From the NCBI GenBank assembly GCA_903842025.1, contig CAIMKX010000035.1:1-36251 (forward strand): DNA of 36,251 nt. The letters run 5' to 3'. Positions within the stretch are counted from its first letter, which is position 1. Each line of letters opens with the position of its first letter. This document shows, piece by piece, positions 5,293 through 31,783 of the stretch. The notes beneath the pieces were generated by a model. It was not told where the DNA came from and made no database searches. It saw nothing but the letters and a program-made list of their open reading frames with translations. This DNA is from an uncultured bacterium. GTDB taxonomy: Bacteria > Patescibacteriota > Minisyncoccia > Phycocordibacterales > PALSA-1337. A program made the position numbers and the translations under genes.

Positions 5293-6678
5293 ATGGACAC
5301 GACTTCCCCATACTTCAAGACCAAAGACCTGAAAATCCCTCCGCATAGCCTCGAAGCGGAGAAGGCTCTGCTCGGCTCGATCATGATCCGCGGCGAGGCC
5401 ATGCACGACATCGTCGACATCGTCAGCGACCAGTCTTTTTATTCCAACATCCACCGGATGGTTTGGCAGGCCCTTTTGGAGCTTCACATCAAGGGCGCGC
5501 CCATCGACGTCCTCACGGTCTCGACCAAACTCAAGGAAAAGGAGCAGTTGGAGCAGGTCGGAGGTATGGCTTTTCTCACTGAGCTCATTAATACAGTCCC
5601 TTCATCGACCAATGCCACTCATTACGCGGAAATTGTCGAGAAGAAACACAGCATGCGCGAACTTCTCAGGGCCGCGGAACAGATTTCCGGGCTGGGCTAC
5701 GATGAGGAATCCGATCTTCATGATCTTTTGGAAAAAGCCGAAAAAGCCCTCTACGCGGTCACGAACAAGACCGGCTCGCACAAATTCGTCCACCTTAAGG
5801 ACACATTGGCCGAAGCCTGGGAGCGCCTCGATCAGCTGCACAAATCAAAAGACCAGTTGCGCGGCGTGCCGACGGGATTTGTCGAATTAGACAACAAACT
5901 TTCCGGCTTCCAAAAGTCCGACCTTATCATCCTAGCCGCCCGCCCTTCCATGGGAAAGACTTCCCTGGCTTTGGACATCGCCCGCAAGGCTTCAGTCAAT
6001 TACAAAATTCCCGTGGCAATATTCTCACTGGAAATGAGCTCACAGCAACTGGTCGACCGCATGCTTTCGGCCGAGTCACAAGTCGATTCCTGGAAGATCA
6101 GGACCGGCCACAACCTCTCGGTTGAGCAGGACTTCAAGGCTATCGGCGAAGCCATCAGCCGCCTTTCCGACGCGCCGATCTACATCGACGACCAGGCCGG
6201 CAACAATATTCTGAAGATGCGCGCCGTCGCTCGTCGTCTCAAAAATGAGAAAGGCCTGGGACTGATCGTTGTCGATTACCTCCAACTTATGCTCCCGACC
6301 AACACCAGAAACAGCGACAACCTCGTCCAGCAAGTCACCGAGATTTCCCGCTCCCTGAAGAATCTGGCCCGCGAATTGGAGGTCCCTGTCCTGGCTCTCT
6401 CCCAGCTTTCCCGCGCCGTGGAGCAACGCGGCGGCAAACCTCGTCTCTCCGACCTCCGCGATTCCGGTTCCATCGAGCAGGACGCCGACGTCGTGATGTT
6501 CATCCACCGCGAAGCCGACCAAGACGCTGGTGGCAAGAAAGAAGAGGCGGAGATCCTCATTGAGAAGCACAGGAATGGTCCCACGGGTTCAATTAAACTC
6601 TTCTTCGACAGCAAGAAGACGACGTTTATGAGTATCGATAAGGCGGACTTTGGGGATTTTGAAGGAAAGGAGAGTTAA
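5293..6678 (+). CDS. dnaB: Replicative DNA helicase DnaB
   Basis: This is the hexameric 5'-3' helicase that unwinds DNA at the replication fork. The N-terminal domain (residues about 10-110, PPHSLEAEKALLGSIM, then the IVDIVSDQSFY segment) packs the hexamer and binds primase. The RecA-like domain has Walker A ARPSMGKTS (about residues 216-224), Walker B LIVVDYLQLM, and the conserved SQLSRAVEQR and RDSGSIEQDADVVMFIHR segments. The length of 461 aa is normal and there is no intein. The stop codon is immediately followed by the left arm of the inverted repeats that enclose the next gene. Confidence 0.97.
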   Translation: MDTTSPYFKTKDLKIPPHSLEAEKALLGSIMIRGEAMHDIVDIVSDQSFYSNIHRMVWQALLELHIKGAPIDVLTVSTKLKEKEQLEQVGGMAFLTELINTVPSSTNATHYAEIVEKKHSMRELLRAAEQISGLGYDEESDLHDLLEKAEKALYAVTNKTGSHKFVHLKDTLAEAWERLDQLHKSKDQLRGVPTGFVELDNKLSGFQKSDLIILAARPSMGKTSLALDIARKASVNYKIPVAIFSLEMSSQQLVDRMLSAESQVDSWKIRTGHNLSVEQDFKAIGEAISRLSDAPIYIDDQAGNNILKMRAVARRLKNEKGLGLIVVDYLQLMLPTNTRNSDNLVQQVTEISRSLKNLARELEVPVLALSQLSRAVEQRGGKPRLSDLRDSGSIEQDADVVMFIHREADQDAGGKKEEAEILIEKHRNGPTGSIKLFFDSKKTTFMSIDKADFGDFEGKES

Positions 6679-8204: not shown

Positions 8205-8278
8205 AGAGGTAGGAGTTAGGAGGTAAGAGGTAAGAGCAAGCATTTGCGACGGTTCTTAACTCTTACCTCTTAACTCTC
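8205..8278. repeat. Inverted pair of TAAGAGGTAAGAG repeats after rmuC
   Basis: On the minus strand the rmuC stop opens TAAGAGGTAAGAG, and about 25 nt later the exact reverse complement CTCTTACCTCTTA follows, within longer related sequence (8205-8237). The rmuC 3' UTR can thus form a 13-bp perfect hairpin. It has the same arrangement as the pair around the four-helix-bundle gene, but empty. Confidence 0.75.
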
Positions 8279-9397
8279 TGTGCTCTCTGGCTTCTCTATC
8301 ATCGCAACCTCTATCCCTGGCGTTTCCCCTGTAATCCTGAGCACATCTTTGTCCACCTTCTTAAGTTCCCGACCGGCTGTATTGTAATGATTGACCACAG
8401 TCGAAAGAGAAATGCCCAATTTACCGTGATATTCCTCGTATTTCTTGAGGTGAGTGCCTAATTCGGAGACTCTCTTGATGATATCCTTGGCGGTCTCCTC
8501 GATGACCAAAGCTTTGAGACCCTGGAGTACAGTCTGCAAATAGGCCAGGAATGAGGTCGGCGAAACGATGATGACTTTGTATTTATTGGCCGCCCGCTGG
8601 ATCAAGTTGTCGGTTTCCTCAGTGATGGCCCCGATCTTATTGACCAACAAATCATAATAGATCGCCTCATGGGGTATGAACATGAAGGCAAAGTCCATGG
8701 TTCCCTCAGTTGGCCGTACATATTTGGCGGTCTCCTGGATTCTGATCTTCAAATCTCCCACGAAGGCTTTTTCCAGCTTCTCACGTTCAGCCGGATTCTT
8801 TTCTTCCGCCAGTTTGTTGTAATTCTCCAAAGAAAACTTGGAATCGATGGGGATTATCTTGTCTTTGACAAAAACCACCGCGTCGACTATCTCCCCGTTG
8901 GCGAAAGCGTACTGCATCTGGTATTGCCCCGGCGCCAGGACATTCTTGAGAAGTGTTTCTAGGTAATACTCGCCGAGAATCCCGCGATGTTTGGGATTCT
9001 TCAGTATGTCCTGAAGATTCTGAAGCTGATCGGCAAAGGAGACGACTTGCCTGTTGGTCTCATCGAGCTTTGTGAGGCCGACGGTCACCTCCTTGATCAG
9101 TTTGGACGATTCTGACAATTGGGACCGCATTGATTCCTGCATATTGCGGGAAGATTCATGGATCTTGCTATCAACTGACTTGGTCAGGCCATCAACTTTG
9201 CTGTCAACGGTTCTGGAAAGATCGCCAACTCGCCTGTCTACTATCCTGCCTAGTTCATTAACTTGTTCAAGAATTAGATTCAGGCCCTGACCGTCCGGCT
9301 TACCATTTGAATCGTTGCGACGGCGAATAAGGATGAAAACAAATACGATATTTGCCAAGACAGCGATTATGACCAGGATTATGAGGGCGGTTTGCAT
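8270..9397 (-). CDS. rmuC: DNA recombination protein RmuC family
   Basis: RmuC-family proteins carry a PD-(D/E)xK nuclease-like core and limit inversions at short inverted repeats in E. coli. The 375-aa product has an N-terminal transmembrane helix (ALIILVIIAVLANIVFVFIL), a long coiled coil with repeated V-D-x-K/R-V-x-x-L phrases (residues about 45-130), and the family core from LQDILKNPKHRGILGEYYLE through AVVFVKDKIIPIDSKFSLENY and TMDFAFMFIPHEAIYYDLL to IIVSPTSFLAYLQTVLQGLK. An in-frame GTG lies just before the ATG; I prefer the ATG at 9397, six nt from a TAAACT -10 box (9404-9409). Confidence 0.93.
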   Translation of the reverse strand: MQTALIILVIIAVLANIVFVFILIRRRNDSNGKPDGQGLNLILEQVNELGRIVDRRVGDLSRTVDSKVDGLTKSVDSKIHESSRNMQESMRSQLSESSKLIKEVTVGLTKLDETNRQVVSFADQLQNLQDILKNPKHRGILGEYYLETLLKNVLAPGQYQMQYAFANGEIVDAVVFVKDKIIPIDSKFSLENYNKLAEEKNPAEREKLEKAFVGDLKIRIQETAKYVRPTEGTMDFAFMFIPHEAIYYDLLVNKIGAITEETDNLIQRAANKYKVIIVSPTSFLAYLQTVLQGLKALVIEETAKDIIKRVSELGTHLKKYEEYHGKLGISLSTVVNHYNTAGRELKKVDKDVLRITGETPGIEVAMIEKPESTES

Positions 9398-9466
9398 CAC
9401 TACAGTTTACAGTGAAAAGCCCTATGATGGAAGTTTGTGTACGTGTATTGTTACTAAATGATAGTA

Positions 9467-10618: not shown

Positions 10619-10631
10619 TACACTATAACCA
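10619..10631 (+). promoter_or_regulatory. yqeY -10 box, leaderless
   Basis: TACACT, six bases (ataacc), then ATG. Confidence 0.5.
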
Positions 10632-11101
10632 TGACCCTACACGAAACCATCAAAAACCAAATAAAAGAATCCATGCGCGCCAAAGATCAGGTTCGCCTCG
10701 ATACTCTGCGCGGGCTCAACGCCTTATTCCTCAATGAAATGCTCAGCCAAAAGATCCCGACTACCGGAGAATTCCTGCCTGACGACAAAGTCTTGGCCCT
10801 CATCAAACGCAGCGTCAATCAACGCAAAGACTCCATCAAGCAATTCGAGATCGGCAAACGTCCCGACTTGGCGGACAAAGAGCGCGCCGAACTTGCGATC
10901 CTCGAGTCATTCCTGCCAAAAATGATGGACAAAGAGCAGATCGAGGTCATAGCGATCAAACATTTGGAAGCTCTGAAGAAATCTGGTCCGGTTGACGCCA
11001 AATCCATCGGCAAACTGACTGGCCTCATCATGAAGGAATTGGCTGGCAGAGCTGACGGCAATGACGTCAAAGGGGTGCTTGAGGGATTGTTGACAAAATA
11101 G
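10631..11101 (+). CDS. yqeY: GatB/YqeY domain protein
   Basis: YqeY proteins share the C-terminal tRNA-interacting helical domain of GatB, the amidotransferase subunit that converts Glu-tRNA(Gln). The 156-aa product shows the usual start (TLHETIKNQIKESMRAKD), the KRSVNQRKDSIKQFE segment, ELAILESFLPKMM in the middle, and GKLTGLIMKELAGRADGNDVKGVLEGLL at the C-terminus, which is the GatB tail signature. Stand-alone members are common and their exact role is unsettled. A promoter for the next small gene overlaps its end. Confidence 0.93.
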   Translation: MTLHETIKNQIKESMRAKDQVRLDTLRGLNALFLNEMLSQKIPTTGEFLPDDKVLALIKRSVNQRKDSIKQFEIGKRPDLADKERAELAILESFLPKMMDKEQIEVIAIKHLEALKKSGPVDAKSIGKLTGLIMKELAGRADGNDVKGVLEGLLTK

Positions 11102-11567: not shown

Positions 11568-11966
11568 ATGCCACATATAATTCAAAAAGATTTTGACGTC
11601 TGGAATATGAATAAGAAGCTTATCCACGCGGATAATGATAATAAGTTATACCGCACTAGAGATATCTGGTGGTGTTCTCTTGGCGTCAATATTGGCTTTG
11701 AAGAAGACGGGACTGGTAATACCGGAGAACGACCGGTAGTAATAGTCCGAGGTTTTAGCAAACAAGTCTGTCTGATTATGCCGCTAACCTCATCGGAAAA
11801 GAGTAATCCGTACTACATCTCCTTGGGAATAGTAAACGGCAGGAAAGCTTTTGTGATCACCTCACAGATTAGACTTATTGATACAAAACGACTTATCAAT
11901 AAGATCGGAGTTGTCGATCAGGATCTTTTTGAGACAATAAGAAAAGCCGCCAAAAACTTTTTTTGA
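11568..11966 (+). CDS. PemK/MazF-type endoribonuclease toxin-like protein
   Basis: The product (up to 132 aa) has the MazF/PemK barrel order: DIWWCSLGVNIGFEEDGTG, then GERPVVIVRGFSKQVCLIMPLTSS, a basic/aromatic strand region, and AFVITSQIRLIDTKRLINKIG with the conserved S-Q-x-R-x-x-D-x-x-R/K element. MazF toxins cut mRNA or tRNA at short motifs. No antitoxin gene precedes or follows it; the next gene upstream on this strand is unrelated. So it is either orphan, neutralised from elsewhere, or used for something other than a TA pair. It lies alone between two copies of a kinase 3' end. The terminator hairpin overlaps its stop codon. Confidence 0.85.
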   Translation: MPHIIQKDFDVWNMNKKLIHADNDNKLYRTRDIWWCSLGVNIGFEEDGTGNTGERPVVIVRGFSKQVCLIMPLTSSEKSNPYYISLGIVNGRKAFVITSQIRLIDTKRLINKIGVVDQDLFETIRKAAKNFF

Positions 11967-12072: not shown

Positions 12073-13677
12073 CTACCCCTTCTCAAACGGCTCCAACTCG
12101 ACGATGAAGGTCGAGCCCTTGCCTTCCCCTTCCGACTCGGCGCGGATGGTGCCGTGGTGGGCGGAGATCATCTGTTTGGCGACATAGAGGCCGAGGCCGG
12201 TGCCGCGGATGTTGGTCTTGCTAGCGTTCTCGGCTCGTGAGAATTTCTGGAAGAGATGCGGCAGGGTCTCCGGGGCGATGCCCACGCCGGTGTCCTTGAT
12301 CTTGAAGACGAAGAGATTCTTGGTCCGGTCGCGGGTCAAGGTGGCGTCGATCGAGCCTTTGGGAGTGTATTTCAGTGAATTGTCGATGACATTGGCGAAG
12401 ACCTGCTTCAGTTTGTCCCGATCGGCTGTCACCCGATAATCGGCGACATTACCCTGCGCCGTAAATGTAAACTTGACGCCGGCCTTGTCGATGTTGGGCT
12501 TGAGCTCCGCCACCACGTCCTCGACCAGGCTCCGGAGATCGACTGTCTGGAAGGCGTACTTCATCGCCCCCAACTCGATCCGGCTGATGTTCAGGTAGTC
12601 ATTGACGATCGCCACCAGAGTATTGGTCGAATCATAAATCCGCTCCACCCCCTGCCTCGCCGCCTTCGGCAACTCCCCCATGTCCCCCTCCAAGAGCAAT
12701 GACGCATACCCCTTCATGGCCGTCAGTGGTCCCCTCAACTGATGTGTCGCGAACGAAACGAACTCCGACTTCTGCCTATCGAGCTCCACCAACCGACTGT
12801 TGGTCTTCTCGAGATCGGTGGCCAACGACTGGATCTGTTCGCGTTGAGAGATTTCGTTGTTTACGCCTTTAATGAGCAGAAAACTAAAAAATGCAACTAA
12901 TATTAATACAATCGCCTTGAGAATGAGCTCAATATTTGATTGAACGAAGAAAAGCTCGATCAAAAGTGTTACAACAATAACAACACTTATTATTTCAGTT
13001 AAAATTACTTTTATATTGAATAGATGGTACTTCGACATTGCTATAAAAAGCGAAACAACCATGATCAAAGAAAACATAGGTCCAAGCCAGGTATAATCAA
13101 AAATTCCAAAATAAGGGAAAATTAAATCTGGAATAATTGCCAACGAAGCAGCAATGATGGGTCCAGTTATTATAAATGCGACTTGCTTCTTTTCTAATTG
13201 ACTACGTGCTCTCTTATATTGAAGCAGGAGAAAAATGAAACCCGCCGAAAAATAAAAAATCATCAGTAAAGCATAGGCTATATATCCTCTATGTATTTCA
13301 TAAGTATATCCATTTGTCTCACCAATTATTAAATTCGTAAACAATATATAAAAAATGATGATTACGAAGGGTATAAAACTTACAATAATCGGCGTTTTAC
13401 TTATTATAAGTTTCTTTGGAAATTGTGTTGTAAATATTAGAAATAGAAATGAAATTAGAAGTGCTGAAGAGTGTGTAAGAACAACCCAATTGATTATTTG
13501 TCTAAATCCTTCCGTATAAAAAGCTATAATAGCTATACTCCATATAACGGATGAAAATGTAAACAAACCAAAAATAATATTGGCTGAAGATTTTATACCT
13601 CTGGAAAAAATGACCATGCTTAAAATAACCTCAAATACGATTACAATCGCAAGAACGCATTGAATTAAATTTATCAT
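12073..13677 (-). CDS. 7TM sensor histidine kinase (HK1)
   Basis: A 534-aa membrane histidine kinase. Residues 1-270 contain about eight hydrophobic segments of the HisKA_7TM type, with PYFGIFDYTWLGP near residue 188-200; then a short coiled coil (about 275-300) and a complete kinase core: H-box FATHQLRGPL (His312), N-box NVIDNSLKYT, G1 DTGVGIAPE, F-box LFQKFSRA, G2 GTGLGLYVAKQMI. It has no receiver domain, and no response regulator is nearby. Its start codon shares a base with the methyltransferase stop, so it ends a three-gene operon. Base composition changes sharply near 12870: the sensor part is AT-rich, the kinase core GC-rich, suggesting that sensor and kinase have different histories. 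Confidence 0.92.
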   Translation of the reverse strand: MINLIQCVLAIVIVFEVILSMVIFSRGIKSSANIIFGLFTFSSVIWSIAIIAFYTEGFRQIINWVVLTHSSALLISFLFLIFTTQFPKKLIISKTPIIVSFIPFVIIIFYILFTNLIIGETNGYTYEIHRGYIAYALLMIFYFSAGFIFLLLQYKRARSQLEKKQVAFIITGPIIAASLAIIPDLIFPYFGIFDYTWLGPMFSLIMVVSLFIAMSKYHLFNIKVILTEIISVVIVVTLLIELFFVQSNIELILKAIVLILVAFFSFLLIKGVNNEISQREQIQSLATDLEKTNSRLVELDRQKSEFVSFATHQLRGPLTAMKGYASLLLEGDMGELPKAARQGVERIYDSTNTLVAIVNDYLNISRIELGAMKYAFQTVDLRSLVEDVVAELKPNIDKAGVKFTFTAQGNVADYRVTADRDKLKQVFANVIDNSLKYTPKGSIDATLTRDRTKNLFVFKIKDTGVGIAPETLPHLFQKFSRAENASKTNIRGTGLGLYVAKQMISAHHGTIRAESEGEGKGSTFIVELEPFEKG

Positions 13678-14381
13678 TATTTTGAAGCTTTATTCAAAAT
13701 TGCTTGTTTAGAATATACTCTCTTCGTATCAGAAACATCTTTAAATCCAGAATTTCTTAAAAGTTTGACCTGCTCATCTTGACACATAAAACTGTAAGAT
13801 CCGCTGACATCTTCTTTTTTTATTCTATAATTATAATAGAATATCTGAATTGTTGGAACTAGAAGCTTACCTAACTCAATAACACTGGAAATATACCCTT
13901 TTTTCTGTATCAGCTTCCTCACGTGATCAAAATATACATGACTGGGCTTGAAACCACTGGCAATATTTGAAATAACAATAGCTCCACCAGGCTTTAATAC
14001 CCGAAATAGTTCACCAAATACTAAGCCTCTTTTACTCGTAGGTAAAGTATATATTACATTGTTTGAAACGATTTTATCAAAACTATTATCAGAAAATGGC
14101 AACGTACACGTTAAATCACTATTAATAATTTTAAGATGTGGTTGCTTCACAAGATGAATTGAAATACCTTCTTTAGAATAATCAATTGCGGTAACATCTG
14201 CTCCTTGTTTCTCTAGTTCGATCGACAAATTACCTGTACCAGACCCAACATCCAAAACAGAATCGCCTTTCATTATTGATAATTCACTTACTATTGTTTT
14301 TAGTAATTCATTATATGGAATCACTCCATTCAGATAGTCATATACCGTAAAATATTTTTTCCAAAATTGTGTACTTAACAT
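13677..14381 (-). CDS. Class I SAM-dependent methyltransferase
   Basis: A soluble 234-aa methyltransferase with motif I SVLDVGSGTGNLSIELE (about residues 41-57), DVTAIDYS (motif II), NSDLTCTLPFSDNSFDKIVSNNVIY (motif III/IV, the LPF-D-SFD signature of the Methyltransf_11 group) and VLKPGGAIVISNI. Such enzymes act on small molecules or lipids. It lies 5 nt after the acyl-synthase-like gene and overlaps the kinase HK1 by one base, so the three are tightly coupled; modification of the synthase product is the obvious hypothesis. Composition is AT-rich like the rest of the block. Confidence 0.88.
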   Translation of the reverse strand: MLSTQFWKKYFTVYDYLNGVIPYNELLKTIVSELSIMKGDSVLDVGSGTGNLSIELEKQGADVTAIDYSKEGISIHLVKQPHLKIINSDLTCTLPFSDNSFDKIVSNNVIYTLPTSKRGLVFGELFRVLKPGGAIVISNIASGFKPSHVYFDHVRKLIQKKGYISSVIELGKLLVPTIQIFYYNYRIKKEDVSGSYSFMCQDEQVKLLRNSGFKDVSDTKRVYSKQAILNKASK

Positions 14382-14386
14382 TGTAT

Positions 14387-15139
14387 TTATATCACTCTAA
14401 AAAAATGGAGTATCTTTGTATATATATTGGACTTTAGAATATATGTACTTTCATTTTCAGCTGTAAATAACAGAGAACAATTAATATGTTTGTACAAGTA
14501 ATTGCGGAAATCTGCTGAAGTAAAATATATCGGAATTACGGGATTGTTCCTTTGATTAAAATATTTTTTTAAAACGCCATCTTTAGGATAAATCTCCGTG
14601 TAATTTGCGATCTCTCCAACAGGCATATGACGTCTTTTCATTTTCTGATAAAGAGTTCTTTTTACAAACGAATATCCACCGGATAAATTATTCTTGAGCG
14701 CAAATGAAAGAATAGTATTAAGCAAAAATAGCATAACTAAACCACGTGGAAGAAATTCATTTTTTTCCTTATCAACAGGGATAATAATAAATCTTCCAAG
14801 CTCAAATCGTGAATCTCGTCTAATAAATTTCATTACCTCCGGTTCCTGAAAAGTGAAGTATTTTTCAGTTGGAAGCGGATCGTCTGTAATAACTCGGATA
14901 AAACCAATTATTTTCTGATCAATTTTAGCAATAAAATAATGGCATTTCCCCAATATATCGAAATTGTCTTTTTCCTTACCCTCAGGATATATTTGTGAAT
15001 CAATATAGCCGCGCTCTTTATAGACCGAATAACGCAATTCAAATGCCTCATTCAATTCCTGAGAATTATCTACTTCACCAAATGAGATAATGTTATTAGA
15101 ATCTCTAGCAGTAACTCTCAATGTAAAATACACTTTCAT
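14387..15139 (-). CDS. GNAT-fold N-acyl-amino-acid/autoinducer-synthase-like protein
   Basis: The 250-aa product has the layout of LuxI/FeeM-type acyl synthases: an N-terminal NEAFELRYSVYKERGYI (the residues just before the acyl-acceptor site), an acidic DNFDILGKCHYFIAKIDQKI, IIGFIRVITDDPLPTEKYF, then FELGRFIIIP where LuxI and FeeM have the conserved E-x-x-R-x-x-V element. FeeM-type enzymes join an acyl group from acyl carrier protein to an amino acid; LuxI to SAM. I cannot tell which, and a plain GNAT is possible. It heads an operon with a methyltransferase and a 7TM histidine kinase and is divergent from a second 7TM kinase. Confidence 0.72.
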   Translation of the reverse strand: MKVYFTLRVTARDSNNIISFGEVDNSQELNEAFELRYSVYKERGYIDSQIYPEGKEKDNFDILGKCHYFIAKIDQKIIGFIRVITDDPLPTEKYFTFQEPEVMKFIRRDSRFELGRFIIIPVDKEKNEFLPRGLVMLFLLNTILSFALKNNLSGGYSFVKRTLYQKMKRRHMPVGEIANYTEIYPKDGVLKKYFNQRNNPVIPIYFTSADFRNYLYKHINCSLLFTAENESTYILKSNIYTKILHFFRVI

Positions 15140-15190
15140 TGCAAAATTATATCATATAATGCATCCTTAACCTGGTATATAATATAAATA
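15139..15190. promoter_or_regulatory. Back-to-back leaderless promoters of the signalling module
   Basis: Minus strand: TGaTATAAT, six bases, ATG 15139. Plus strand: TATAAT (15178-15183), six bases, ATG 15190. Both promoters fit in 50 bp, so the synthase operon and HK2 share one control region. Confidence 0.65.
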
Positions 15191-16887
15191 TGGAGATTTC
15201 ATTATATTCTGCTCTAATATGGTCGACAGCCTCGCTTATTTTCAGTCTTGCATTAGTGGTTTTCTTGGGAAGCAGCGATAAGACTTCGCGCATTTTTAGC
15301 ATATGCGTTTTTATTGTTACATTATGGACAATAGATACTGGATTAGTCTTATCAGCTCCAAATAAACAACTAGCAGAAATATTTGTTAAAATTAGCGACG
15401 TATTCAGTAGTGCTGTAGCAACATCCTTTTTTTATTTTTTCTTAACATATCCAAGTGGTACGAAACCAAATAAGTTCATTACTATCTTTCTAGTATTTTA
15501 TCAATTATTCATTTCGTATTTATGTTTATTTACGAATAAAATTGTTGGGAATGCTTTCTACGTTGCGTCACCGGTAAAATGGGGTTGGGAGTTTGGGCAA
15601 CTATCTTTACTATTTGAAATATATTTCATAGGTCTTATTCTAATTGGTATCGTAATTTTACACAGAAAATATTTGTTCTATAAGGAACTATGTGTTAAAA
15701 AGAATCTCCTATTTATGATCTTAACAATTAATATTGGAGCTATTCCTCCAGTAGTAATGTGTGATATATTGCCACGCTTCGGATACTTTGATCTTGATTG
15801 GTTGGGACCAATAACTGGAATCGTCTGGGTATCCATCATCACCTACTCCATCCTCCGCTACCGCCAGATGAACGTTAAAGCCGTAGCCGCCGAGGTATTG
15901 GCGATCGCGATGTCGATAATATTGTTCATCAACATTTTCGTGGACATCTCGTCAGATCGGTGGATGAGCATCGTGACTTTCGGGGCATTCATAATCTTGG
16001 CCTATTATCTTATCAAGAACATCCTGCGCGAGGCCAAGCAGACGGAACAGTTAGCGGACTTGAACGCCAACTTGGCGGCCAAGGTGGCGGAGCAAACAGC
16101 CGAGGTACGCAGGTCTTACGATCTGGAGAAGAAGGCGCGGCGCGAATTGGAAAAACTAAATGAAACAAAGGACCAGTTCATCATGATCACCCAGCACCAT
16201 TTGCGGACGCCGGTCACCGGGATCCGGTGGGAATTGGAGGAGATACTGTCGGGCGCTCACGGTCCCCTTTCGGCGAAGCTTAAAAAAGCCTTGAGCGAGG
16301 CCCAGGGATCAACGGACAGATTGACAAAGATCGTCAACGACTTCCTGGCCATCACGGCCATCAAAGCCGGCGGCAATATCCTCAACCTAGCACCGGCCAG
16401 CTTGAGGCCGCTGGTCGAGGACATATTGAAGGAACTGCGGATCGACATTGAGAACAAGAAGATCTCGGTAGACTATCCGACGGACGAGAAAGATTGGCCG
16501 ACCTTGAACATTGACGCGAACAAAATGCGCGAAGCCCTGCTCATCATCATTGAGAATGCGATCAAATACAACGTCGCCGGCGGCCGAATCGCCATTCAAA
16601 CCCGCTTGGACAAGGAAGTGTTTGAGCTTAGCGTGACAGACAGCGGACTAGGGATCGGCCGCGAGGACATGGAGAAGATCTTCAGCAACCTCTTCCACCG
16701 CGGCGAACGCGCCCGCCAAACCAACCCCATCGGCATGGGCGTCGGCCTCTCGGTGGCTCGGGCCATCGTCAGTGCCCATCATGGAGAGCTGACATTGGAA
16801 TCTGAAGGCGAGGGTAAGGGAACGAAAGCGGTGGTGATGATAGGGGGGGTTGCAAAATTGGAGGTTAAATCATGTTGGAGATACTGA
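15190..16887 (+). CDS. 7TM sensor histidine kinase (HK2)
   Basis: A 565-aa membrane kinase built like HK1: about eight hydrophobic segments (residues 5-275) with the shared motif PRFGYFDLDWLGP (about 195-207), a coiled coil (280-325), H-box ITQHHLRTPV (His336), N-box IIENAIKYN, G1 DSGLGIGRE and G2 GMGVGLSVARAIV. The kinase core differs from that of HK1 and belongs to another subgroup. The change from AT-rich to GC-rich sequence falls near 15830, at the end of the sensor. The usual stop seems to be lost: the sequence matches the downstream fragment (20049-20234) up to GAGGTTAAAT and then diverges, adding SCWRY before TGA. Confidence 0.92.
   Translation: MEISLYSALIWSTASLIFSLALVVFLGSSDKTSRIFSICVFIVTLWTIDTGLVLSAPNKQLAEIFVKISDVFSSAVATSFFYFFLTYPSGTKPNKFITIFLVFYQLFISYLCLFTNKIVGNAFYVASPVKWGWEFGQLSLLFEIYFIGLILIGIVILHRKYLFYKELCVKKNLLFMILTINIGAIPPVVMCDILPRFGYFDLDWLGPITGIVWVSIITYSILRYRQMNVKAVAAEVLAIAMSIILFINIFVDISSDRWMSIVTFGAFIILAYYLIKNILREAKQTEQLADLNANLAAKVAEQTAEVRRSYDLEKKARRELEKLNETKDQFIMITQHHLRTPVTGIRWELEEILSGAHGPLSAKLKKALSEAQGSTDRLTKIVNDFLAITAIKAGGNILNLAPASLRPLVEDILKELRIDIENKKISVDYPTDEKDWPTLNIDANKMREALLIIIENAIKYNVAGGRIAIQTRLDKEVFELSVTDSGLGIGREDMEKIFSNLFHRGERARQTNPIGMGVGLSVARAIVSAHHGELTLESEGEGKGTKAVVMIGGVAKLEVKSCWRY
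16692..16872 (+). repeat. Direct repeat, upstream copy (HK2 3' end)
   Basis: This stretch from CTTCCACCGCGGCG to GGAGGTTAAAT is repeated in the same orientation at 20052-20232, with the highest identity over the GMGVGLSVARAIVSAHHGE region. The copies bracket 3.2 kb with the ABC-F gene and the candidate RiPP operon. Confidence 0.85.
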
Positions 16888-18677: not shown

Positions 18678-18715
18678 AATTTGTTCATAGGCAACAATCA
18701 AGAAAAAGGATGATT

Positions 18716-19939
18716 ATGATAGTTAGAATACGAAAAGAAAACGACCAGTATTTGGCTTACTTTCTCGAAATGCGTCGCATGGTCGGAGTCAATCTGACTG
18801 GGGCAGAAATTATTGACCAATATTTCAATAGTGGTCTTGATGAAGCCTCTGTGGCCAAGAAGCTGGCGAAAACGCACAACATGTCTCTTGAACAGGCTAA
18901 AAAGGATACAGCCGCATTTTTGCAAATCATAGCAAAAGAGTTACAACCGACATCATTCAATAACACCGAGCAATCATCGGTATCCGCGCCGATTGGAGTT
19001 GAACTCGAGATCACGACAACATGCAATTTACGATGCAAACATTGCTTGCAGTCCGATTACAGTAAATTGTTCATGGCTATAGAGAAAGCCAAGCGGATAA
19101 TTGACACGCTCAAAAACGCTGGAGTGTTTGAAATCAGTATCATTGGCGGAGAGCCATTCGCTCATCCACAAGCGTGCGACTTCATCCGCTATGCGCATGA
19201 TTGCGGTCTTGCCGTCGGGTTAACCACGAACGGAAGCTTGATCACAAGCGAATATATACGCAAAATGTCCGGTTTGGACAACCTTTCAATAGCCGTGAGT
19301 ATCGATGGTATTGGTCGTGATCATGACTATATTCGAGGAAGTGGCATCTTCTCGAAGATTGACCAAATTATACGGCAGATGATCAATGTAGGCATTGAAG
19401 TCGAGGCAATGTTCACCATCACCTCATATAACATCGAAAAATACGGATCTGTCCTCGATTATTGCAATAATCTTGGAATAGTCTGCAACTTCAATCTATT
19501 CAAACCGTTCAAGGAGTCCCATAAGACACTTGTACCAGATCCGTTACGTTTCTTCAAATTAGTCAAAGAACTATTCGCAATGCGTCAGTCACGAAAATAC
19601 AAGATAGGATTATCTAACGCCGCCATTGTAAGTTATCTTCTTGGTATCCAAACGAGAGATGAGTGTCGGGCGGGACAATCTGGTTTAGTGATTGATGTAC
19701 GTGGACATATGTTGACCTGCCCTTCATTGCTGTACTGCGGCTATTACAAAGACACTGACTTTCCGCTTTTTGACGACAACTTTGTCGAAGTGTGGCAAAC
19801 ACATCCACTATTCACAGAGTTCAAGAAGAATGGACTCCACGGATGTCAAGTTAGATCGCTGATTTATTCTGGCGATGTACGGAAAGGCGATCCATACGAC
19901 CTTTCGGCATTTCGCAAATTTGCTGAGAGGAAAAGTTAA
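18716..19939 (+). CDS. Radical SAM peptide-modifying enzyme with N-terminal PqqD-like RRE
   Basis: A 407-aa enzyme. Residues 1-85 form a PqqD-like RiPP recognition element: VRIRKENDQYLAYFL, NLTGAEIIDQYFNSGLDEAS and EQAKKDTAAFLQIIAKEL. The radical SAM core follows, with CNLRCKHC (Cys103, 107, 110), the GGEPF motif and VSIDGIGRDHDYIRG. The C-terminus has Cys317, Cys335, Cys341 and Cys377 in GLVIDVRGHMLTCPSLLYCG and HGC, like a shortened SPASM/twitch auxiliary cluster. Such enzymes bind the leader and install thioether, C-C or epimer modifications. The start at 18716 has AAGG at the right distance; ATG 18710 is too close to it. It is the second gene of the operon with the 57-aa peptide and ends at a terminator. 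Confidence 0.88.
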   Translation: MIVRIRKENDQYLAYFLEMRRMVGVNLTGAEIIDQYFNSGLDEASVAKKLAKTHNMSLEQAKKDTAAFLQIIAKELQPTSFNNTEQSSVSAPIGVELEITTTCNLRCKHCLQSDYSKLFMAIEKAKRIIDTLKNAGVFEISIIGGEPFAHPQACDFIRYAHDCGLAVGLTTNGSLITSEYIRKMSGLDNLSIAVSIDGIGRDHDYIRGSGIFSKIDQIIRQMINVGIEVEAMFTITSYNIEKYGSVLDYCNNLGIVCNFNLFKPFKESHKTLVPDPLRFFKLVKELFAMRQSRKYKIGLSNAAIVSYLLGIQTRDECRAGQSGLVIDVRGHMLTCPSLLYCGYYKDTDFPLFDDNFVEVWQTHPLFTEFKKNGLHGCQVRSLIYSGDVRKGDPYDLSAFRKFAERKS

Positions 19940-23294: not shown

Positions 23295-24002
23295 TCACCT
23301 CCTTTCATACAACCCCTCAACCTCCTTATGGAAAGTTTCGGTGATTTTCTTGACGGAATTGTTCCGGTCGATCCGCAGGGGCTTGCCGACGTTGACGGTG
23401 AGATCCCTCCACCAATAATTGCGGCGGCCGAGGCGGAAGGAGACCGGTATAGCCGGCACCCCCGTCTCCTTGACCAGCACGGCCGCGCCGTTCTTGAACT
23501 GGCCGATGCCGCCGGAAGCGTTGATCTTGCCTTCCGGATAGATGACAATATTACCCTCGGCTTTGACGATCTCGCGGGCCTTTTTCAAATTCCTGTCAAT
23601 GCCCAAACCGGGCACGATCGTAAAGACGCCGAAGAGAGAGTAGACGAAATCGATGATGCCGATCGATGCCAGGAAATTGAGCGAAGTCCATTCGAACTTG
23701 GTCACGGCCATGAAGCGCAGAGGCAGATGCGGCGTGATCGGCCCCAAAACCAGGCGGAAGACGAAGCTGTGGTAAAAATCGACGTGATTGGCGACGATCA
23801 CGAAAGGGCCGGAAAGCTGGCTGAAATTTTCCCGGCCGCGGATCTCCAGGCGGTAGAAGAAATTGTAGACAAGATGGATGATCGGCCAGGTGGCGTACTG
23901 GGTCAGCCTGGCGAATTCATTGACGATCCTCTGCTGGCTGATCTGCCGGCCCTCGATCGGCAGGTCGAACGAATCGGCGATGTTATCTACGATTGCAGAC
24001 AT
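23295..24002 (-). CDS. PlsC-like lysophospholipid acyltransferase family protein
   Basis: The 235-aa product has the acyltransferase blocks: block I ANHVDFYHS (the family has NHxxxxD; here the last Asp is Ser), block II region GVFTIVPGLGIDRNLKKAREI, block III NIVIYPEGKINASGG and block IV AIPVSFRLG. PlsC proteins acylate lysophosphatidate in phospholipid synthesis. The altered block I could change activity or specificity. Hydrophobic N-terminal segment WPIIHLVYNFFY may associate with the membrane. Two tiny membrane ORFs follow on the same strand. Confidence 0.85.
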   Translation of the reverse strand: MSAIVDNIADSFDLPIEGRQISQQRIVNEFARLTQYATWPIIHLVYNFFYRLEIRGRENFSQLSGPFVIVANHVDFYHSFVFRLVLGPITPHLPLRFMAVTKFEWTSLNFLASIGIIDFVYSLFGVFTIVPGLGIDRNLKKAREIVKAEGNIVIYPEGKINASGGIGQFKNGAAVLVKETGVPAIPVSFRLGRRNYWWRDLTVNVGKPLRIDRNNSVKKITETFHKEVEGLYERR

Positions 24003-28751: not shown

Positions 28752-28907
28752 CTATGTTCCAGTCTGTTGCCGGGACGAATCGGTCGGTTTTGCCTCGACA
28801 ACATTTGAGTCTTTCGACTCAGTTTTCTCAGCTTTTTTGACCGGTTTTGTCTTGACACAGATTTCGGTGATCTTGTCACCGTCAAGAACTGCTTTACATT
28901 TTGACAT
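28752..28907 (-). CDS. 51-aa Lys-rich peptide coupled to a radical SAM gene
   Basis: MSKCKAVLDGDKITEICVKT followed by a Lys/Glu/Ser-rich tail (KPVKKAEKTESKDSNVVEAK then PTDSSRQQTGT). Its ATG lies 14 nt inside the upstream radical SAM gene and has a ribosome site (AAAGGTG, 5-6 nt away), so it is translationally coupled; a terminator follows. Two Cys (4 and 17). It could be the substrate of the two upstream enzymes, or a small binding protein: the N-terminus also faintly recalls CooT-like metal-binding peptides. Confidence 0.6.
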   Translation of the reverse strand: MSKCKAVLDGDKITEICVKTKPVKKAEKTESKDSNVVEAKPTDSSRQQTGT

Positions 28908-30381
28908 AACTCACCTTTCGTAGGGGTTTGTACTTGTTATCACCATCAGGGAAAGAAGAAATCGCATCGACTGCGCGATAAGTCTCGACTATTTCTTCCA
29001 ACAATTTCGGCGAAAGCTCGTCGATGATTTTCAGAACACGACATTCGAGTTCTGGAAGCAAACCGCGCTCTTCCAGTCTTCGAACATGCAGACAATCCAG
29101 ATGTAGTGCCCATACAATCGTTCCGTCTGCTTCCGTCTCAAGCCCAAGCGGGTAAAGACGACATGCCAAGGGGCGATCTTTGTAGATACTACATCTTCTA
29201 CTGTCTGTACACAACTGACTGCATGGAGGATACCGAATTGATAAATCGGGCACCCCTTGCGCAGTCACAGGAAACGAATGAATAAAGGTTGGCCCATTAT
29301 TCACTTGAACTAGCGGAACACCTTGTTCGTACAGATGCGCGGCTTCTTTTTTGAGTAGCCACACATAACCCATACAGTCAGGATCAGAACATTCACGACA
29401 ATCCTGCTCCATCCTCGGATAAAGTTCACCGAGAACATCGTATAGTTGCTCAAGAGTTTCGGTGAATGGTTTCTGCTCCGCAAACGCACACCCAGTGGCT
29501 ACGTTTCCGACAAATACCACATGTTTGCTCGCACGCACACTGTAGCAACATTTATGTTCATGTCCAGAATAAGTCGAAGCGGTACGCTCCGGCCATATCT
29601 CGAACACAAACGATCTAATATTGCCGATGGCGAGATCTGGCCGCCGTTGGAAAACTTCACTGCAAACATAGAGGTTTCCGTCGGCAGTCATGTATAGTGT
29701 CACGCCGTCGACCCAGCATTTCTCATCTGCATCAGAGAGAATTTCCCCGAATACATCGGAGGCCGTTTTGACAACCATTTCCGGTAAGTGCTTTTTCTGT
29801 TCCTCGGAGAGTTTAAGCTCATCCGAAAAATGATAGGCGCGACCGGCAATAGTTATCTCGTTGAAGTGAATGCTATTACAACCATACTCGACTGCGAGCT
29901 TGGCGAACGCGTTCAAGTGTTCTACGTTGATTGCTGAAATCGTAACGTAGAGAGTTGTCGAAATGCCCAACATTCGGCATTGCGTGAGAGTCTCAATGAT
30001 ATATTTGTAGCTTCCATCACCACGAATGGCGTCATTGGTTGCCTGATCTGCACCATCGAGACTGATTCCGAGATCAACGCCCAAGCGTTTGATCGTTTCC
30101 AAAGTTGCCTGTGGGAGCAAGGTGGCATTGGTTATTACAGACGACTTCAACCCCAATGCAACTGATTTTTCAAGCAAGACAAGGATGTCTGATCGGTTGA
30201 ACGGTTCTCCGCCGGTGAAGCAGATTCTGGAAACTCCTGCGGCTTGGAATGTCGCCAAAGCAACCATCGCTTCCTTGGTCGTAAGTTCATTTTCTCTCAC
30301 CGGACCAGACATCGGCAGACAGTGCTTGCAACCGAGATTGCACTTGTTGGTGATTTCCCAATGAATTTCACGAAGTTGCAT
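28894..30381 (-). CDS. Radical SAM/SPASM-like enzyme with C-terminal YkgJ-type Cys cluster
   Basis: A 495-aa protein. The radical SAM core begins at the N-terminus with CNLGCKHC (Cys14, 18, 21), then CFTGGEPFNRSD and ISLDGADQATNDAIRG. A SPASM-like part holds Cys222, Cys240 (GVTLYMTADGNLYVC), Cys278-279 and Cys298, followed by a small Cys motif CRECSDPDC (328-336). The C-terminal segment has CSQLCTDSRRCSIYKDRPLACRLYPL (Cys387, 391, 397, 407), the layout of the CxxCxxCC/YkgJ family. It begins inside the end of the other radical SAM gene (14-nt overlap) with a perfect AAAGGAGGT ribosome site. Substrate unknown; the 51-aa peptide is the local candidate. Confidence 0.85.
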   Translation of the reverse strand: MQLREIHWEITNKCNLGCKHCLPMSGPVRENELTTKEAMVALATFQAAGVSRICFTGGEPFNRSDILVLLEKSVALGLKSSVITNATLLPQATLETIKRLGVDLGISLDGADQATNDAIRGDGSYKYIIETLTQCRMLGISTTLYVTISAINVEHLNAFAKLAVEYGCNSIHFNEITIAGRAYHFSDELKLSEEQKKHLPEMVVKTASDVFGEILSDADEKCWVDGVTLYMTADGNLYVCSEVFQRRPDLAIGNIRSFVFEIWPERTASTYSGHEHKCCYSVRASKHVVFVGNVATGCAFAEQKPFTETLEQLYDVLGELYPRMEQDCRECSDPDCMGYVWLLKKEAAHLYEQGVPLVQVNNGPTFIHSFPVTAQGVPDLSIRYPPCSQLCTDSRRCSIYKDRPLACRLYPLGLETEADGTIVWALHLDCLHVRRLEERGLLPELECRVLKIIDELSPKLLEEIVETYRAVDAISSFPDGDNKYKPLRKVSYVKM

Positions 30382-31783
30382 GTTGTACCTCCTTTATGAG
30401 ATCAAGAGCATTCACCTGAAGCATCTTGCTCACAAATAACCGTATTTCGTGCTCATCGACTGATTCGGAAAATCGAGCGACAAGCTCACGTTCTCCAATC
30501 AATGATTCACTGATAATGGCCTGAGCCGTTTCCAGTGCCATCTCATCGAGTTTTACCGTCTGATACCGCGTAACCAGAAATTTCTCCGGGTAACGCGTTG
30601 TAAGTTTCATGAATCGGTTTGGTCGAAAGTTTCGGTAACTTTCCGGATATTCTTCAGCCATCTTACGATGCTTGACTTTTGTTACCAATTCAGCGACAGG
30701 CTTGGAAAGTCCGCGAACCGCATAGTCGATACAGAATCTGTCTGAGCAGTTCGAGTCAACTTTGCAGCCGCCCGTACAGTCAAGCAGTAGTTCGCACGAT
30801 TTACACGGCTCGCCGACCCAGGATAGATCACGGAAGATATCGAGTGCTGGCTTGTTCCAGATCGTCTCGATTGACTCTTTCATGACATTACCAAAAACAA
30901 GTTGCGACTGATTACACATCCGGAATTCACCTTTTGGGTTAATCGCGCAGAAGTATGTACCAACTCCGCAATTTGATGTGATACCCTCAGTGATCATCCG
31001 TTCATCCAAGCAGTACGGAATAGCTGTACCGAAACCGACCCTTCCATCAAAGATGGCAAAGTCGTGTTTGGCCTGAACTATTTGTCCCACAGCAATGTGA
31101 AACTGCTCGCGTGTCGGCTTCAAAGTATAGCCGCGGGAATTGACCGCGCCAATACCGCCATCTTCATAGCGGTCGATGTAAATCGACTCCATGCCGAGAC
31201 TTGCCGCAATGCCGATGATGTTATACATCTGATCATAATTGTAACCAGTTAGAACTGGTATGCACCGCACATCATGACCTTCGCCCACATAACACCTGAT
31301 TGTCTCAAGTGTTTTCTCAAAACTACCTGGCGACTGATTGAGAAATTCATGGGTTTTGGCATTCGCCCCATGAATCGGAACTCCGAAACAAGCAAGCTTG
31401 CTCGAGATACCATCTAACCGCTTTAGGCCATTAGTTACGATCGTAACGGATGAGGAAGGAGAGAGAAGCTCAATATATTCGTTGAGCTTCTCGACAGGCA
31501 GTAAGCTTGGCTCGCCACCGATGAGATATACATGCGGTATCTGACTCACCGCGATGGAACGAACAAGCTGTTCAATCGTTGATAGATCGCCCAGTTTTGC
31601 TCGTTCGGGATTGTAACAGAAGATACACTTCTCGTTGCACGCATATGTCAATTCGATATGACAGAGGTGCGGAATGGTATCGTGAAGAACGTATTTACCG
31701 TCCTCACGCCTTCCTTGTGAACGATAATTACAATGCACAGTCGTAACAGGCGACCATGCGTCATTTGATAGATTCGTTTTCAC
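30368..31783 (-). CDS. Radical SAM/SPASM enzyme with C-terminal PqqD-like segment
   Basis: A 471-aa enzyme with radical SAM motif CNEKCIFC (Cys49, 53, 56), LIGGEPSLLP, and a full SPASM region: NCGVGTYFCAINPKGEFRMC, then PCKSCELLLDCTGGCKVDSNC and FCIDY. The last 85 residues (RYQTVKLDEMALETAQAIIS, ERELVARFSESVDEHEIRLF, VSKMLQVNALDLI) resemble a PqqD/RRE-like winged helix, which in this family recognises leader peptides. GTG 31783 is the start, with AAGGAAAA upstream overlapping the end of the RNHCP gene, 4 nt away. This is typical of RiPP maturases, so its operon probably modifies a peptide. Confidence 0.88.
   Translation of the reverse strand: MKTNLSNDAWSPVTTVHCNYRSQGRREDGKYVLHDTIPHLCHIELTYACNEKCIFCYNPERAKLGDLSTIEQLVRSIAVSQIPHVYLIGGEPSLLPVEKLNEYIELLSPSSSVTIVTNGLKRLDGISSKLACFGVPIHGANAKTHEFLNQSPGSFEKTLETIRCYVGEGHDVRCIPVLTGYNYDQMYNIIGIAASLGMESIYIDRYEDGGIGAVNSRGYTLKPTREQFHIAVGQIVQAKHDFAIFDGRVGFGTAIPYCLDERMITEGITSNCGVGTYFCAINPKGEFRMCNQSQLVFGNVMKESIETIWNKPALDIFRDLSWVGEPCKSCELLLDCTGGCKVDSNCSDRFCIDYAVRGLSKPVAELVTKVKHRKMAEEYPESYRNFRPNRFMKLTTRYPEKFLVTRYQTVKLDEMALETAQAIISESLIGERELVARFSESVDEHEIRLFVSKMLQVNALDLIKEVQHATS

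Follow-up and report, generated by a model that had tools for sequence, protein, structure and literature searches.

In the ComQXPA system of Bacillus, comQ, comX and the 5′ regions of comP vary together (PMC6334282), and agr of Staphylococcus contains a similar hypervariable region (PMC12312760). In both systems the signal-making genes co-vary with the N-terminal half of a receptor kinase while the kinase half is conserved, and the signals are modified peptides from one enzyme family. Here we describe a locus of comparable organization in an uncultured, ultra-small bacterium of the Patescibacteriota, found on contig CAIMKX010000035.1 of assembly GCA_903842025.1. The stretch analyzed, hereafter the window, comprises 36,251 nt and corresponds to the complete contig G000:C35 of a genome with a size of 0.95 Mb and a completeness of 99%. 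It encodes a putative acyl synthase of the GCN5-related N-acetyltransferase (GNAT) clan, a methyltransferase (MT), and two seven-transmembrane (7TM) sensor histidine kinases, HK1 and HK2. As in pherotype-type loci, the biosynthetic module and the sensor half of HK1 co-vary against a conserved kinase half, and the alleles occupy the same chromosomal site, but entire enzyme classes are exchanged rather than the peptide products of one enzyme family. It is not a ComQXPA or agr locus proper, since the cassette contains no peptide precursor, no isoprenyl transferase or AgrB, and no cognate response regulator. We found no earlier report in the open literature of entire enzyme classes being exchanged together with a sensor half ahead of a shared kinase core.

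The N-acylhomoserine lactone (AHL) systems LuxI/LuxR and LuxM/LuxN have the LuxI-type synthase fold and catalytic residues in common with the GNAT, but they differ in that the cassette described here contains no LuxR gene, has an additional MT and a HisKA_7TM sensor, and belongs to a genome in which no acyl carrier protein (ACP) was found. LuxN is a membrane kinase receptor, and HK1 in such a role would resemble it in principle. The FeeM-type N-acyl amino acid synthases are also close, FeeM being the best-matching Pfam family of the GNAT. Homologs of LuxI and CqsA have been reported beside sensory kinases in genomes of the candidate phyla radiation (CPR), with 18 cases of LuxI/kinase adjacency (PMC7567580), so LuxI-like genes next to kinases are in themselves no novelty in this group, for which a preliminary description of the window, made from the sequence alone, had held that a dedicated acyl signal would be new. 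An MT partner, a second kinase, a shared chromosomal site, and the exchange of module and sensor half are not described in the accessible portion of that report.

The GNAT (250 aa; 14387–15139), the class I S-adenosylmethionine (AdoMet)–dependent MT (234 aa; 13677–14381), and HK1 (534 aa; 12073–13677) are encoded on the minus strand, with 5 nt between GNAT and MT (14382–14386) and a 1-nt overlap of MT and HK1 at 13677. HK2 (565 aa; 15190–16887) is encoded on the plus strand, and its start is separated from that of the GNAT by 50 nt. All four genes are the longest open reading frames (ORFs) at their positions, and an ORF check agreed with the positions, the 5- and −1-nt gaps, and the 50-bp divergent arrangement given in the preliminary description. 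HK1 and HK2 each match HisKA_7TM (PF16927), HisKA, and HATPase_c above cutoff. Gene presence and absence across the genome was judged from protein-family searches, in which HK1 and HK2 were the only two PF16927 matches detected, among five HisKA matches. The preliminary description had seen in them the same kind of 7TM sensor joined to different catalytic cores, and this is correct: both sensors are PF16927 domains, and the kinase cores are only 34% identical.

The two halves of HK1 have different histories. Sensor (residues 1–265) and kinase (from residue 300) were compared separately in 39 HK1 proteins, which were classed by module labels taken from their immediate neighbors and partly assigned by hand. 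Sensor identity was 38.5% for pairs with the same module and 20.4% for other pairs (p = 5e-5 by permutation, the lowest value attainable with 20,000 shuffles), whereas kinase identity showed no excess (50.2 against 52.5%, p = 0.77). Within the GNAT+MT class the lowest sensor identity was 35%, and the highest to any other class was 30%; the corresponding kinases ranged from 29 to 69% identity within the class and reached 78% outside it. Individual comparisons display the same mosaic. Relative to a locus encoding a Methyltransf_20 protein, the HK1 of the window is 75% identical in the core and 29% in the sensor, whereas relative to the GNAT+MT locus of genome G024 it is 33% identical in the core and 48% in the sensor. 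Sliding identity places the switch at HK1 residues ∼270–290 (12808–12870), just before the phospho-acceptor domain, where identity steps from 29 to 90% against the HK1 of G005 (TG_G005) and from 61 to 33% against that of the GNAT+MT locus of G024 (GNATMT_G024). The PF16927 match that marks the exchangeable 7TM domain spans 13012–13650, and the resident core, consisting of the dimerization and histidine phosphotransfer domain and the catalytic domain, spans 12073–12807.

In a maximum-likelihood tree of the sensors, the six GNAT+MT sensors form one clade with support of 100/100. In the corresponding kinase tree the six kinases are scattered, were joined in 0 of 200 bootstraps, and are rejected as a clade (approximately unbiased test, p = 2e-61). 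The Methyltransf_20 sensors form one group when set against the GNAT+MT sensors alone and two separate subclades among all rows, and for the AdoMet decarboxylase class and a group from G034, G040, and G044, kinase identity is raised as well. That the 7TM sensor half of HK1 tracks the biosynthetic module while the kinase half does not is thus demonstrated for the GNAT+MT class and is likely for some other classes. The coupled inheritance of synthase, MT, and HK1 sensor half is strong evidence, at the level of sequence, for a synthase/sensor pair. We judged chimeric assembly an unlikely source of the mosaic, because many assemblies show the same pattern and the kinase cores of different genomes are clearly distinct.

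The exchange of modules came to light through the distribution of the kinases. Kinases with PF16927 occur in 35 of 53 genomes of the family, including genomes without the GNAT. This refuted an initial assumption that every 7TM kinase accompanies the GNAT and led to the module-exchange finding. Orthologs of the HK1 kinase core, with 52–77% identity, are encoded in 33 further family genomes beside many different modules. In 17 of 39 loci yqeY (10631–11101, plus strand, in the window) is found ≤1.3 kb from the 3′ end of HK1, usually with rmuC (8270–9400, minus strand) after it, and these two genes anchor a common chromosomal site at which about ten different modules are found. The neighbors of HK1-type kinases include Methyltransf_20 proteins, CoaB/CoaC-like flavoproteins with a transglutaminase-like protein, a PigE/acyl-ACP-reductase-like protein, an NAD_binding_4 reductase with a UbiE-type methyltransferase, and a pyridoxal 5′-phosphate (PLP) enzyme of the BioF/Kbl/CqsA type, which is accompanied once by an ADC-like and an ICMT/PEMT-like protein. 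AdoMet decarboxylase, a histidine-decarboxylase-like protein, an EamA transporter, and a formyltransferase occur there too. At locus L113, a pyruvoyl-dependent histidine-decarboxylase-like gene (5503–6354; PF02329, 146 bits) is directly upstream of an HK1-type kinase.

The GNAT is encoded in 4 of the 53 family genomes, all of them among the 34 members of the genus to which the window belongs, and all four genomes keep GNAT, MT, and HK1 together with an adjoining divergent 7TM kinase. One of these same-genus cassettes is in Candidatus Taylorbacteria bacterium RIFCSPHIGHO2_02_FULL_44_12 (contig MHRM01000014, also G003:C14), so that the window comes from a Patescibacteria (CPR) genome, in agreement with the assumption of the preliminary description. 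Two genomes from other families of the order encode MT, GNAT, and HK1 without HK2, so that the GNAT+MT+HK1 cassette is kept in six genomes from three families, in the order GNAT-MT in three and MT-GNAT in three. The neighborhood, on whose conservation the preliminary description had made its interpretation depend, is therefore conserved. Farther afield, FeeM matches were found in 10 of 379 sampled genomes of the phylum, 8 of the 10 having an HK1/HK2-like kinase directly adjacent, and in four remote loci a receiver-domain gene is next to the kinase. A more distant genome (L052) encodes an MT beside a GNAT that is cut by the contig end, with kinase-less 7TM modules upstream; these belong to three tandem membrane proteins of ∼230 aa (L052:3215–5448), two of which are HisKA_7TM-like without a kinase. 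A mobile or viral origin of the cassette was considered and rejected, no relative having been confirmed in viral contigs.

Several lines of comparison place the GNAT with acyl synthases, as the preliminary description had proposed from likeness to LuxI and FeeM. Its Pfam matches exceed the curated cutoffs for FeeM (41.1 bits; cutoff 27), Autoind_synth (31.7; 24), and Acetyltransf_5 (25.9; 22.4), and when the PDB was searched with a profile of four relatives, AHL synthases were the sole matches at E ≤ 1 (MesI, E = 0.0046; LasI, 0.028). An AlphaFold2 model of the GNAT, made from seven relatives, has a predicted local distance difference test score (pLDDT) of 88.7, and VIA-align gave Z scores of 16.2 for LasI, 16.1 for BjaI, 15.6 for RpaI, and 15.3 for both MesI and FeeM, against 13.7 for the best plain GNAT. 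The root-mean-square deviations over aligned residues were 4.0/185 for LasI, 2.8/179 for BjaI, 3.4/180 for FeeM, and 2.5/144 for the best plain GNAT. The predicted structure of the 14387–15139 product thus ranks closer to LasI, BjaI, and FeeM than to plain GNATs, and profile scores and structure ranking together rule out a plain peptide or aminoglycoside acetyltransferase. What we take to be the catalytic positions of LuxI proteins (EsaI numbering: R24, F28, W34, D45, D48, R70, F84, E101, and R104) have as counterparts in the GNAT R36, Y40, Y45, D58, D61, R82, F95, E113, and R116, so that the conserved Trp is replaced by Tyr. All except F95 are invariant among the seven relatives, and R36, D58, D61, R82, E113, and R116 align with MesI, LasI, and RpaI residues in HMMER alignments. 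By profile and model, the GNAT does belong to the LuxI/FeeM group of acyl synthases; the model's structure scores for LuxI-like and FeeM-like types tie and do not tell them apart. Identity as an exosortase-associated acyltransferase was ruled out, because the match to TIGR03694, the PEP-CTERM/exosortase-associated family, falls below the family cutoff; no PEP-CTERM or exosortase gene was seen beside the GNAT, which has a kinase partner instead.

The MT matches Methyltransf_11 with 69 bits, and six other genomes encode an ortholog, 49–52% identical to it, adjacent to the GNAT. Its AlphaFold2 model (pLDDT 90.3) has as nearest solved structures the carboxyl O-methyltransferases CysG/BelI (Z 21.5), which methylate a carboxyl group (PMC11408123). 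This is only a hint that the MT may act on a carboxylate, because a large number of further small-molecule methyltransferases follow within 3 Z. Methylation recurs beside related GNATs in nonorthologous form. On a contig binned as Pontiellaceae (L031), a nonorthologous MT overlaps a GNAT 54% identical to that of the window, and a third type, a PF12147 methyltransferase, is present in the GNAT locus of G628 (L029). The Pontiellaceae-binned GNAT/MT pair (L031:1–3389) adjoins a WXG100 gene and shows a step in G+C content from 0.40 to 0.60, the result of either transfer or misassembly. In six remote Patescibacteria cassettes (L025, L026, L027, L028, L048, and L050), each with an HK1/HK2-like kinase and some also with a receiver-domain gene, the MT is replaced by a ThiF/E1-like gene, assigned by Pfam in two cases and by similarity or motifs only in the others. 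On one reading, the MT or the ThiF-like enzyme would cap an N-acyl amino acid at its carboxylate.

HK2 behaves differently from HK1. HK2-type kinases of 39–52% identity are found beside several modules, with no correspondence between sensor and module: the HK2 of the window is 49% identical in the sensor and 53% in the kinase to that of a reductase/UbiE locus in G008, and 36 and 51% identical, respectively, to that of the GNAT+MT locus in G024. HK2 is also missing from two of the six GNAT+MT cassettes. Because its sensors do not follow the module, HK2 is best read as a resident second kinase with another input. The motif P.FG.FD..WLGP, which the preliminary description had found in both kinases, is indeed present in both, but looser forms occur in 10 of 13 HK2-type and 7 of 39 HK1-type proteins, several of them with other modules. 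It thus belongs to these 7TM sensors in general and is no sign of a shared ligand, and the reading of HK1 and HK2 as two receptors of one ligand is not supported. In the Taylorbacteria genome named above, the HK2 homolog (L024:4425–5675) consists of 7TM and HisKA and ends after HisKA without an ATPase domain, for which there is no room, as only 3 bp separate its stop codon from the end of a convergent PlsC gene.

We propose that the region represents an allele of a variable signaling locus. The GNAT would acylate a small amine or amino acid by LuxI/FeeM chemistry, the MT would complete the product, perhaps by forming a carboxyl methyl ester, and the released, diffusible product would bind the 7TM half of HK1, its proposed cognate receptor, and drive a kinase core common to the lineage. 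Lineages would swap the whole unit of synthase module and sensor half ahead of this shared core, much as signal, processing gene, and receptor N terminus are swapped between comQXP or agr alleles, so that different signals would feed one conserved output. We put the probability of this interpretation at roughly two in three. Of the scheme in the preliminary description, in which synthase, MT, and both kinases form one signaling system, the pairing of synthase and HK1 sensor is supported by co-inheritance, whereas HK2 as a second receptor of the product is not supported.

Several observations weigh against this proposal. In some modules a transporter or a SET-like protein is present in place of an obvious synthase, and the rule that sensors follow modules does not hold for all classes, since the sensor excess is small or absent in the transglutaminase, acyl-reductase, PLP-synthase, and SET classes (22–27% against 19–21%). 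Neither an ACP nor an AMP-binding acyl ligase was detected in the genome by the family searches, so that the acyl group may come from acyl-CoA, from the host, or from an unusual donor. No exporter and no cognate response regulator were identified. Moreover, any recombination within the kinase gene would move the sensor and the genes upstream of it together through physical linkage alone. The breakpoint observed in the conserved kinase region would then reflect ordinary shuffling of sensor domains, which is common among two-component systems (PMC10805038), with the upstream genes hitchhiking passively and GNAT and HK1 functionally unlinked. Against this, the link survives at 40–50% identity, across families, with two kinase lineages whose cores are ∼30% identical, and with the MT/GNAT order reversed, whereas HK2, equally close at 50 bp on the other side, does not co-travel; we regard passive linkage as highly improbable.

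Identical coupling of sensor and module would be expected if the modules made or modified internal metabolites, or acted on host compounds, and HK1 sensed substrate or product and regulated its module with no signal passing between cells. Several modules do look metabolic (AdoMet decarboxylase, histidine-decarboxylase-like, CoaB/CoaC-like flavoproteins, and EamA transporter), but one kinase core under very different modules amounts to one output with many inputs, which fits signaling better, and two of the module types have relatives among known autoinducer synthases. We consider such feedback-controlled private metabolism unlikely. A membrane aminolipid pathway is also an unlikely account, and a shade weaker. 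The GNAT would here be an OlsB-like N-acyltransferase, consistent with its match to Acetyltransf_5, the OlsB family (PMC11631085); PlsC would add the second acyl chain and the MT methylate the head group while the kinases monitor the membrane. The only PlsC-type acyltransferase found in the genome is encoded 8 kb away (23295–24002, minus strand) and may provide a lipid link, and PlsC adjoins or is near many sister loci. These, however, include loci with unrelated modules, so that PlsC, which is outside the operon, behaves as a resident neighbor, and Acetyltransf_5 is only the third-best match, below FeeM and Autoind_synth. Nor would a housekeeping lipid pathway be expected in only 4 of 34 genus members, or be swapped with decarboxylases or PLP synthases.

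Returning to the signaling locus, the preliminary description noted that no response regulator is encoded nearby. This applies to both cassette and window, but six receiver domains are encoded elsewhere in the genome. One belongs to a single-domain response regulator (G000:C42, L135:5747–6142) located in the type IV pilus operon between pilB and pilT and 67% identical to a protein encoded in G008 after HK1 and PlsC and before PilT. It is one candidate partner of HK1. This single case of synteny weakly suggests type IV pili as a possible output, and we found no report in the literature linking Patescibacteria kinases with type IV pili. A more far-reaching version of the proposal, to which we give not quite even odds, is a chemical pherotype locus in which a fixed kinase output receives plug-in cassettes of chemistry and matching 7TM sensor, swapped at one boundary in the kinase gene, and in which private, strain-specific signals would possibly steer type IV pili via the pilB-pilT regulator. 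If the proposal is right, bacteria with reduced genomes that lack much of core metabolism would invest in lineage-specific chemical signaling, and host-dependent cells would gain private signals specific to the strain. The locus would exchange chemistry itself, beyond peptide sequence; its cassettes would be ready-made synthase/receptor pairs, many of unknown chemistry, and breakpoint plus 7TM sensor clade would give a sequence rule for spotting new signals in uncultured microbes.

The 50-bp divergent intergenic region (15140–15189) had been thought to hold both promoters, but it contains no convincing one: a single sigma-70-like match was found in the region against 1.3 expected by chance. 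Between HK1 and yqeY, a PemK/MazF-like gene (11568–11966, plus strand) is an extra gene at the variable locus. Elsewhere in the window, a radical SAM gene with a weak PqqD-like N terminus (18710–19939, plus strand) is a possible peptide-modification gene, and a pair of overlapping radical SAM genes, one of which has SPASM, lies beside an RNHCP gene (28894–31783, minus strand) and may likewise function in peptide modification.

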